This document shows, one piece after another, positions 20,021-22,819 of a DNA stretch of 64,000 nucleotides. Under the pieces are notes generated by a model. The model was given only the letters and a program-made list of their open reading frames with translations. It made no database searches and had not been told where the DNA came from. The stretch's first letter is position 1; each line of letters starts with the position of its first letter. A program made the translations under genes and the position numbers. The DNA is from Gloeobacter morelensis MG652769 (lineage in GTDB: Bacteria; Cyanobacteriota; Cyanobacteriia; Gloeobacterales; Gloeobacteraceae): assembly GCF_021018745.1 (NCBI RefSeq), contig NZ_CP063845.1:434001-498000 (forward strand), read 5' to 3'.

Positions 20021-20941
20021 CTATCTGCCTTGCAGCTTCTCGTGGGCGGCGGGCAGCAACCCGCCCGTCGCACCGAGCGCCTCGGCACAGGTGGCCGCAT
20101 CGCGCCCGCTCCAGTGCATCAGTAAGGCAACTTTGACTCGCAGGCCGCTCGCTTCGAGCAAAGCGAGGGCGGCGGTGCGCTCAAGCTCCGTAAGGGTAGT
20201 CAGGATGCGCACGGCCCGATCACGCAGCTTCTGGTTGGTGACCGCCACATCGACCATCAAGTTGCCGTAGGTCTTGCCGAGGCGGACCATGGCTCCGGTC
20301 GAAAGAATATTGAGTACGAGCTTGGTGGCAGTGCCCGCCTTGAGGCGCGTCGAACCGGCGAGCACCTCCGGCCCCACCGGCACCCGAATCTCGATGTCCC
20401 AGCGCTCGGGAATCTGGCTTGTGGGCACGCAGGCTACGAAGACCGTGCCGGCCCCCAGCGAGCGGGCGTAGGCGAGGGCACCTGTGACGTAGGGAGCCGT
20501 GCCCCCGGCGCTGATACCCACCACCACATCCGCAGCACTCAGAGCGCGCGCCGCAAGCTCGGCCGCTCCCGCCTCGGGGTCGTCCTCGGCCCCTTCGATG
20601 CTGCGGGTGAGGGCGGCCATTCCCCCGGCGATGATCCCCTGCACCCGATCGGGGTCGGTACAAAAAGTCGGCGGGCACTCGCTTGCGTCGAGCACCCCGA
20701 GCCGGCCGCTGGTGCCCGCTCCGATATAAAATAAGCGCCCCCCGCCGCGTAAAGCGGCAGCGACGACATCGATGGCCCGGGCGATGGCGGGGGCGGCAGC
20801 CCGCACGGCCGGCACCACCCGCTCGTCCTCGCGGCAGAACAACTCGACCAGTGACAGGCTGTCGAGCTGGTCGAGTCGGGCACTATCGCGATTGACTTGC
20901 TCGGTAACCAGATGCGCACGCTCGGGCAGCCATTCAGCCAT
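20021..20941 (-). CDS. murQ: N-acetylmuramic acid 6-phosphate etherase
   Basis: Cleaves the lactyl ether of MurNAc-6-P to give GlcNAc-6-P, a peptidoglycan-recycling step. The ATG at 20941 (MAEWLPERAHLVTEQVN) gives 306 aa, the usual size; the longer frame overlaps the D1 gene. It is a SIS-domain protein with FYIGAGTSGRLGVLDASECPPTF and GGTAPYVTGAL, and a C-terminal UBA-like helical end. It begins 8 bases after the stop of the divergent psbA on the same strand, so the two are probably one transcript. No MurNAc kinase gene is visible nearby. Confidence 0.93.
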   Translation of the reverse strand: MAEWLPERAHLVTEQVNRDSARLDQLDSLSLVELFCREDERVVPAVRAAAPAIARAIDVVAAALRGGGRLFYIGAGTSGRLGVLDASECPPTFCTDPDRVQGIIAGGMAALTRSIEGAEDDPEAGAAELAARALSAADVVVGISAGGTAPYVTGALAYARSLGAGTVFVACVPTSQIPERWDIEIRVPVGPEVLAGSTRLKAGTATKLVLNILSTGAMVRLGKTYGNLMVDVAVTNQKLRDRAVRILTTLTELERTAALALLEASGLRVKVALLMHWSGRDAATCAEALGATGGLLPAAHEKLQGR

Positions 20942-20949
20942 GGGTGGTG

Positions 20950-22014
20950 CTAGGGCTTGGGAGCCCAGCGCTGGGCTGAGCGGTGCACCAGTTCGGAGAC
21001 GGCCATCGTGCCGGGCTCCATCGAGTTTTCGATACCCGCCCCGGCGCGCTTCACTACATCTGCCCAGGTGGGAATGGCACGGTAACCCTGGCTCTCGATA
21101 ATCGGCCGATAGCGAAAACCATCGAGGTTGAAGGCCACCGCCGTCACCAGGGCCGTGCCGCACCAGACGCCCACGGTTGCATAGACCGCCAGAAAAGCCG
21201 CCACCATGCGCGGGTTAATCATCCCGGCCGGGCCAATGGCCAGGCGGCCGACAAAACCGTAGGCCGCCCAGGGGCTGTAGGTCTCCTCGGCCTGGCCGAA
21301 GCGGTAGCCCTGATTGACCGATTCTTCGTCGCTGGTGCGGCTGACAAAGGACGAGGTGACCACCGAACCGTCGAAGGCGCACAAACAGGCGGCACCGAGC
21401 ACACCGGTCACCGCGAGCATGTGCAGCGGGTGGTTGAGAATATCGTGCGCCGCCTGCAGCTGCAGCATCCAGTTAAAAGTCCCGGTAATCCCCAAAGGCA
21501 TGCCGCTCGCGAATGCCCCCTGACCGATGGGATAAATAAGGCAAATAGCGAAGGCGGCGGAGGCAGGAGCGCTGAAGGCCACCGCGATCCAGGGGCGCAT
21601 GCCCAGCCGGTAGGAAAATTCCCACAACCGGCCCAGGTAGCAGGCCACCGCCACCAGAAAGTGCAGTACGATGAGCTGGTAGGGTCCGCCGTTGAGCAGC
21701 CACTCGTCGAGCGACGGTGCGGACCAAACGGGATACAGGTGCAACCCGATAGCCGGGGAAGTAGGCAGAACCGCCGCGGTGATCAGATTGTTGCCGTCGA
21801 GCAGCGAACCGCTCACCATGCGGCCCAGACCATCGACGACCACCGGCGGCGCCGCAACGATCGCCGCGAGAAAACAGATGGCCGCAGCAAACATGCACGG
21901 TACCATCACGACACCGAACCAGCCGAGATAAAAGCGGTTATCGGTGCTGGTGACCCAGTTGCAAAAACGGTCCCAATATCCCTTGGGACGCAGTCTTTCA
22001 AGTATCGCAACCAT
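20950..22014 (-). CDS. psbA: highly divergent photosystem II D1 protein
   Basis: 354 aa D1 homologue that aligns without gaps to standard D1 up to about residue 329, so numbering is shared. Kept: Asp61, His118, Tyr161 (TyrZ), Gln165, His190 and the P680 ligand His198. Changed: Asp170 to Ser, Glu189 to Ala, His332 to Met, His337 to Met, Asp342 to Leu and Ala344 to His, so the Mn4CaO5 cluster cannot form normally and the C-terminal processing site is gone. His215 to Asp and His272 to Ala remove both D1 ligands to the non-haem iron; Ser264 to Gly and Phe255 to Val alter the QB pocket. The reading frame is intact, with five predicted membrane helices retained. It resembles neither standard D1 nor, by loss of His215/His272, the ChlF type as I know it. 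Confidence 0.93.
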
Positions 22015-22282
22015 GGTGGTTTTCCTTCGATCCGATGAGACCCCCTCATTAGTAGCAGCTCAGACTGCCCAGCCCTCCACAGCCTGATGTCTTGTAACTT
22101 TCGGGGAGTAAGCACTCAAATGTAGGCCATATCTGAATCAACGCCTAAAAGCTGTGAAAGGACGCTTTGCGATGCCTGTAGTCTATAAAAAACTTAATGG
22201 TCCGTTTAGACTTGAAATGCAGAATCACTCTAGAATGCAAAAGTCTCGCTCCCAGAATGTTTCGAGTTGGAGGATGGTGCCG

Positions 22283-22819
22283 ATGACGCTCAATTATCAG
22301 GAAGATTTTCTCGGGATCGATCGGTTCTTTCAAGAAGCGACGTACCACGACCAGACCGATTTGAACGCGGCCTCTTCGATCGAAGTGGAGATCTACGAGC
22401 ACGAGTGCATGTACCCGACCTTTGCCGAAATCGCCCGTCAGTCGGGAGCGAGCGAAGTTGCCGGCATGTTCGAGGCGATCGCCCGCGAAGAGAAGGAGCA
22501 CGCCGATCTATTGCGCGAACTCTATCCGCAATTGGAGATTAAAGATTCCCCCGAGACCGCCGAGGCGCGGCGGCTGGTGGGTGAAATCGAAGCCCAGATG
22601 GCCGTGGTGAGCACCGACCCGCGCGGCCTGCGCCGGGCGTTGGAAACCGCCCTGGAAGTCGAATCGATCGAGGCCACCAAGACCTACCCGGCCTTCGCCC
22701 GTCTCGCGCGCGAGCAGGGTAAAGAGGAGATCGCCCAGCGCTTCGATTCCATCACCGCAAGTGAACAGCGCCATATGCAGTGGGTGCAGCGCGCCCTCGA
22801 CCGGCTGGTCAGCGCCTGA
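22283..22819 (+). CDS. rubrerythrin-like ferritin-family diiron protein
   Basis: 178 aa four-helix-bundle protein. The ATG at 22283 is chosen because GGAGG lies nine bases upstream; the frame is open further upstream but AT-rich and non-conserved. Two ExxH-type repeats supply diiron ligands: EVEIYEHECMYPTFAEIA with AREEKEHADLL, and ALEVESIEATKTYPAFARLA with ASEQRHMQWVQ. No C-terminal rubredoxin domain is present, so it is an erythrin-type peroxide-scavenging candidate. It is divergent from the atypical psbA, sharing a ~270-base upstream region in which I see no clear promoter pair. Confidence 0.85.
   Translation: MTLNYQEDFLGIDRFFQEATYHDQTDLNAASSIEVEIYEHECMYPTFAEIARQSGASEVAGMFEAIAREEKEHADLLRELYPQLEIKDSPETAEARRLVGEIEAQMAVVSTDPRGLRRALETALEVESIEATKTYPAFARLAREQGKEEIAQRFDSITASEQRHMQWVQRALDRLVSA

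Follow-up and report, generated by a model that had tools for sequence, protein, structure and literature searches.

The window, that is, the whole stretch of 64,000 nucleotides that was analysed, encodes a D1 paralogue which, judged from its alignment with other D1 proteins, has lost nearly all ligands of the Mn4CaO5 cluster, the two ligands that D1 contributes to the non-haem iron, and the QB proton relay formed by His252 and Ser264, and which retains the chlorophyll ligands His198 and His118, Thr179, Met183, and the TyrZ-His190 pair. By identity and gene order the protein is the already known "G0" D1 of Gloeobacter. It is under purifying selection, with a weaker constraint than that on ordinary D1. 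The protein is tentatively regarded here as an accessory non-oxygenic D1 paralogue that is retained by selection and may work like ChlF without being ChlF itself, a reading that we would put at somewhat below an even chance.

The genome carrying the window (G000; 5.10 Mb, with a main contig of 4,921,229 bases) contains five standard psbA loci and one psbD besides the G0 gene. The genomes used for comparison included G001, which we take to be G. kilaueensis, and G003, presumably G. violaceus. The features of the locus are listed below.

20950..22014, minus strand: G0-type D1 (psbA paralogue), 354 aa, stop codon at 20950-20952, identified from the ORF, Pfam, the D1-chain alignment, and the G001 orthologue.
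20021..20941, minus strand: murQ-like gene (SIS domain), 78% identical in G001, its ATG located by eye 8 nt past the G0 stop.
22283..22819, plus strand: divergent rubrerythrin-like gene, adjoining G0 in both genomes that have G0.
22085..22120, minus strand: conserved block upstream of G0, seen by eye in G001 and retained in G003 despite the loss of the gene.
20942..22075, no strand assigned: stretch of about 1.13 kb absent from G003, where the flanks match at 94% and 87%.

The G0 ORF begins with ATG and contains no internal stops. Pfam Photo_RC matched the protein with an E value of 1.6e-69, which identifies it as a type II reaction-centre protein. The closest solved relatives were PSII D1 chains, with which residues 2-331 were aligned to 2-331; the gap-free alignment to about residue 329 reported in the sequence-only reading was therefore nearly exact, apart from an offset of one residue that opens and is compensated around residues 304-311. 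Beyond residue 334 or so the alignment was ambiguous, and gaps were placed there in two alignments. The AlphaFold model (mean pLDDT 64.6) was too poor for site geometry, and its top Foldseek matches were PSII D1 chains with a TM score of about 0.56. Against the TIGR01151 psbA profile G0 scored 458 bits, below the cut-off of 596.05, which was also missed by three of six scanned rogue-type rows (571.6, 591.8, and 581.9 bits); against the psbD (D2) profile it scored 131 bits with a cut-off of 600.6, and its identity to D2 was 27-28%. The genome's own standard D1 was at best 59% identical to G0 and the G001 orthologue 73%. This latter identity, the gene order shared with G001, and PMC12096807, which assigns the only two known G0 sequences to G. 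kilaueensis and G. morelensis, identify the gene as G0, as had been proposed beforehand, and the pair grouped at 100/100. The function, expression, and incorporation of the two sequences are described as unknown in the same source.

The roles of D1 positions as ligands and relay residues are well established; His198 and His118 are chlorophyll ligands, and His252 and Ser264 form the QB proton relay. Both G0 copies keep Asp61, His118, Tyr126, Tyr161 (TyrZ), Gln165, Thr179, Met183, His190, His198, Glu244, and Tyr246, and both carry the changes Asp59Val, Glu65Arg, Glu130Leu, Tyr147Phe, Asp170Ser, His215Asp, His252Tyr, Phe255Val, Ser264Gly, and His272Ala. The window copy also has Glu189Ala and, in a C-terminus whose alignment is uncertain past 334, Met332, Glu333, Met337, Leu342, and His344, so that Glu333, which the sequence-only reading had not counted among the losses, is the one retained of the seven D1 ligands of the Mn4CaO5 cluster. 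These data bear out what had been read from the sequence, namely that Tyr161, His190, His198, and Asp61 are kept (in both copies), that Asp170, Glu189, His332, His337, Asp342, and Ala344 are replaced (by Ser, Ala, Met, Met, Leu, and His in the window copy), and that Ser264 and Phe255 of the QB pocket are changed (Gly264 and Val255 in both copies). The loss of Mn ligands holds for the window copy and is not identical in G001, where position 189 is Glu and position 333 is Gln. Glu189 was given as the sole retained Mn ligand of the G. kilaueensis sequence in PMC4773611, a pattern that differs from the Ala189 and Glu333 of the window copy. Across 66 other D1 rows, a set without ChlF, 89 positions were invariant; both G0 proteins retain 66 of these positions, 14 of the remainder show the identical replacement in both copies and nine differ or are altered in one.

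Both His215 and His272 were present in 94 of 96 rows (52 standard-type D1, 14 rogue-type, 20 ChlF, 3 D2, and 5 L/M), and the two exceptions were the G0 pair, in which Asp215 and Ala272 replace the two iron-ligand histidines expected of a type II reaction-centre protein. The Asp and Ala noted earlier in the window thus recur in the G001 orthologue; because that orthologue has the same Ser170, Asp215, Tyr252, Val255, Gly264, and Ala272 while all 94 other rows keep both histidines, the pattern goes beyond chance. According to the sequence-only reading, the iron histidines are retained in rogue D1 and ChlF, and this was the case in 14/14 rogue-type and 20/20 ChlF rows. Histidines occur in the window protein at 92, 118, 190, 195, and 198 and once in the C-terminal tail, and in the G001 protein His198 is the last one. 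Placement of the iron ligands at shifted positions, the case raised beforehand as fatal to the claim, was excluded, since in both copies the region that runs from His198 to the C-terminal tail is free of histidines and no spare one is available as a substitute. A literature search, with text finds for H215 and H272 in PMC12096807 and PMC4773611, returned no earlier mention of the iron-ligand loss, which is not claimed here to be unreported. Separately, His198 is replaced by Ser198, Ser198, and Gln198 in rogue-type D1s of three genomes (G012, L138; G049, L139; and G062, L144, respectively), in which the iron histidines are kept.

The D1 row set was thinned from 147 to 76 by removing near-identical rows (at least 91% identity, or 98.5% within Gloeobacterales) and those shorter than 300 aa, and 20 of 23 ChlF matches were read; the tree with ChlF was built from residues 10-331 of 67 of the 96 rows, which were selected for speed. 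When D2 served as outgroup, the pair of G0 proteins (100/100) formed a long branch outside standard D1. Without D2 it grouped with the rogue rows (96/85), and with ChlF included it joined ChlF plus rogue D1 (85/98), nearest to ChlF with weak support (78/41); the 14 rogue rows formed one group without G0 (95/90). Within the pair the branch of the G001 copy was longer (0.46) than that of the window copy (0.19). In the ChlF set, grouping G0 with Gloeobacterales D1 was 6.86 lnL worse (p 0.27), and in the sets without ChlF it was 2.01 and 3.10 lnL worse (p 0.446 and 0.309). The power of the AU test was low, as a grouping with a group-3-like clade was rejected (p 0.008) and one with a Cyanobium clade was not (p 0.126). 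G0 shares four of 18 Gloeobacterales-diagnostic residues, compared with 0/11, 1/7, and 0/7 for control clades and 2/15 for rogue D1. This tally would suit a Gloeobacterales in-paralogue, but the Met139 and Ala144 of G0, where the Gloeobacterales rows have Leu and Cys, speak against one, and such an origin is neither demonstrated nor rejected. Judged from these trees, the first-branching position published for G0 or the G. kilaueensis sequence (PMC12096807, PMC4773611) is neither favoured nor rejected, and ChlF-sister, first-branching, and Gloeobacterales-sister placements all stand unrejected. This agrees with the omission of the G. kilaueensis sequence from one dataset of PMC8047818, where its position was unstable.

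The placement matters because G0 has been used in print as evidence of a D1 that existed before water oxidation, and the argument made for the G. kilaueensis sequence would have G0 preserve a D1 predating the Mn4CaO5 cluster. The published first-branching position would suit such a relic, and in the ChlF set that topology was 0.41 lnL below the best tree (p-AU 0.35); Met332 and Pro334 of G0 resemble D2 in the alignment, as judged by eye, and Met139 and Ala144 leave room for a deep branch. We nevertheless consider a relic clearly improbable. The iron histidines are carried by the D1, D2, L, and M rows, so their absence from G0 must be derived; the same may then apply to the Mn ligands that are missing, which weakens the case for a D1 from before water oxidation. 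Moreover, only two D2-only residues occur in G0 at 10-331, the best tree containing ChlF does not place G0 first, and positions 189 and 333 vary between the two copies.

Selection was estimated from the window copy and its G001 orthologue, which gave a dN of 0.185, a dS of 1.10, and a dN/dS of 0.168 (bootstrap 0.117-0.229), with differences of 0.216, 0.129, and 0.46 at the three codon positions. With the frame open in both species, this supports the earlier suggestion that selection keeps it intact. In the same run dN/dS was 0.031 for psbD, 0.065, 0.069, and 0.095 for psbA pairs, 0.070 for argC, 0.044 for rubrerythrin, and 0.141 for murQ, so the G0 value was the highest of the eight pairs; a separate, single run gave 0.203 for acpS.

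Constraint was distributed unevenly along the protein. Identity of the pair was 83% at residues 10-222 (177/213) and 59% at 223-331 (61/104), a divergence ratio of 2.45. By region it was 93% in helix B, 84% in helix C, 97% in the CD loop, 78% in helix D, 53% in the DE loop, 70% in helix E, and 57% at residues 295-331. Pair counts are descriptive, as pairs share branches. A ratio at least as high was found in none of 1490 other D1 pairs (identity range 0.68-0.82, ChlF not included), and none of these had a CD loop diverging as little. This first comparison was made without ChlF, and adding ChlF changed its reading because ChlF shares the skew: 105 of 184 ChlF pairs (184/190 used, identity range 0.60-0.85) reached the ratio of G0, with a median of 2.54, and only one of the 184 had a CD loop as quiet. 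The median for rogue D1 pairs was 1.25, and 0/88 were as high as G0. Near-identical standard D1 orthologue pairs of G000 and G001 gave ratios of 1.17, 1.56, and 2.74, with zero CD-loop change in two and few differences throughout. In these alignments, then, the two G0 proteins are conserved from helix B through the CD loop and only loosely constrained in the DE loop and towards the C-terminus, and ChlF has this skew as well.

The order acpS, small ORF, argC, divergent rubrerythrin, G0, murQ is identical in G001. The murQ-like gene is possibly co-transcribed with G0, given that its ATG lies so close to the G0 stop, and the block at 22085..22120 is a possible promoter, at which a consensus promoter scan found no site. 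Rubrerythrin is present in 9/9 genomes of the order and murQ in 8/9. The exception is G002, in whose contigs murQ was not found; the locus there runs into the end of contig C11, and the last 400 bases or so (L175), where G0 or murQ would be expected, hold a transposase-like ORF that by eye reads as an IS30-like transposase. G0 is intact in two of six genomes of the family (G000 and G001). In G003 it is deleted and rubrerythrin and murQ are adjacent; in G007 G0 is absent and the gap measures 168 bases. G006, from another genus, has a decayed copy between rubrerythrin and murQ at about 6598-6748 of L174 (contig C83), a shattered remnant whose G0-like fragments lie in three frames and are 69, 85, and 80% identical over 13, 13, and 25 residues. 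The occurrence of intact, deleted, and shattered states across the family is most simply explained if G0 predates the split of the G000 and G006 genera and has been lost since.

These losses could also mean that G0 is a once-useful D1 duplicate on its way out, with selection weakening in both remaining species. The deletion in G003, the shattering in G006, the highest dN/dS of the main run, and the shortened DE loop and longer branch of the G001 copy all fit such decay. The frame is, however, open in both species with dN/dS far below 1, nearby acpS is equally high (0.203), the same 14 replacements of invariant residues stand in both copies, and identity in the CD loop reaches 97%. We hold a decaying duplicate to be clearly improbable.

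Outside the G0 pair, no full-length relative above 60% identity was found in 59 genomes of the class or among the best 80 of 182 species-collection matches; partial matches of standard-type D1 at contig ends reached 65%. Phage origin was rejected, as all 512 phage records with a match had less than 60% identity. On plasmid pNsp_g of Nostoc sp. ATCC 53789 (L182, 601-1624), a psbA-like stretch was matched as two separate pieces and coincides with none of the listed genes; it is possibly a broken copy.

Under the favoured ChlF-like reading, G0 would pair with the single ordinary D2 to form a reaction centre whose acceptor side is altered and in which charge separation would reach P680+/TyrZ and at most QA. 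The oxidising pigment half might then act, as in ChlF, on some substrate such as a bound pigment; QB would not turn over and the quinone pool would not be fed. In favour of this we count the residue pattern, purifying selection, the lopsided constraint and its recurrence in ChlF, the remodelling of the QB pocket in ChlF as well, the ChlF-adjacent tree (weak), and the lack of a private D2 or CP43/CP47 partner in the genome, a search of which returned one D2, one CP47-type, and one CP43-type match. Against it we count the missing QD motif, the retention of the iron histidines in all 20 ChlF rows, a tally of 4/33 ChlF-diagnostic residues, a CD loop atypically quiet for ChlF, the near-identical standard pairs with zero CD-loop change, one with a skew of 2.74 and very few differences, and the dispensability of G0, which was lost in G003 and broken in G006. 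Chl f is an unlikely product, because G0 is without the QD motif.

The main rival is that G0 is a placeholder or sentinel, which would take the place of D1 in darkness, under low oxygen, or in the course of repair and give a PSII that is assembled but inactive and quenches energy. Such a role has been proposed for rogue D1, which forms inactive PSII according to PMC4773611 and PMC6492235. The Mn and QB sites are gone while the pigment ligands and 66/89 invariant D1 positions are kept, as such a role would have it, and the rubrerythrin-like neighbour hints at most at oxidative or low-oxygen conditions. Rogue-type rows, however, keep His215, His272, His332, and His337, so inactivity requires no loss of the iron site; their constraint skew is lower, and a passive filler needs no near-invariance around TyrZ. 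We rate the placeholder as a possible but rather unlikely role. A more specific proposal, that G0 and ordinary D2 form a light-driven oxidase whose four-histidine iron-quinone site is dismantled on the D1 side, so that its photochemistry stays in the P680/TyrZ half and a bound pigment or other substrate is oxidised, and that Asp215 with the two remaining iron histidines of D2 might form a 2-His-1-carboxylate iron centre, appears improbable; were it true, G0 would perhaps be a second D1-family photoenzyme beside ChlF. Provided that it is expressed, G0 would represent a reaction-centre subunit from which the D1 side of the iron-quinone site is missing, and in this it would differ from all 94 other rows examined.

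Among known systems, the atypical D1 of G. kilaueensis JS-1 (AGY58976.1, cited in PMC8047818) is the orthologue if G001 is that species, with the same iron and QB residues lost; it differs in having Glu189, Gln333, and a shortened DE loop, where the window protein has Ala189, Glu333, and a full-length DE loop. The DE loops of G0 and G1 are described as most divergent in PMC12096807. Standard D1 (groups 3 and 4) shares the pigment and TyrZ residues of G0, which unlike it has lost Mn, iron, and QB residues. Rogue or sentinel D1 (group 2) resembles G0 in missing some Mn ligands and in having Phe147 and Leu211, but its rows retain His215, His272, His332, and His337; G0, with Met332 and Met337, falls outside the rogue group as delimited by clustering together with His332 and His337. 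ChlF (group 1, super-rogue D1) is at best about 53% identical to G0 and likewise has its Mn ligands lost, its QB pocket remodelled, and its acceptor half relaxed. In the 20 ChlF rows (L193-L212) Gln252 and Gln255 were constant (20/20), 264 was variable, and the 332-344 region highly variable. Of the ChlF set Leu117, Phe147, Gln252, and Ser285, G0 has the first two, with Tyr252 and Cys285 for the others, and the two G0 proteins have in common four of 33 ChlF-diagnostic residues. The QD motif at 127-128, listed among ChlF-characteristic residues in PMC10535343, is Leu127 Gly128 in G0, and a pattern search with that motif found no match elsewhere in G000. ChlF thus shares with G0 the loss of Mn ligands and differs from it in Gln127-Asp128, Gln252, Ser285, and both iron histidines.
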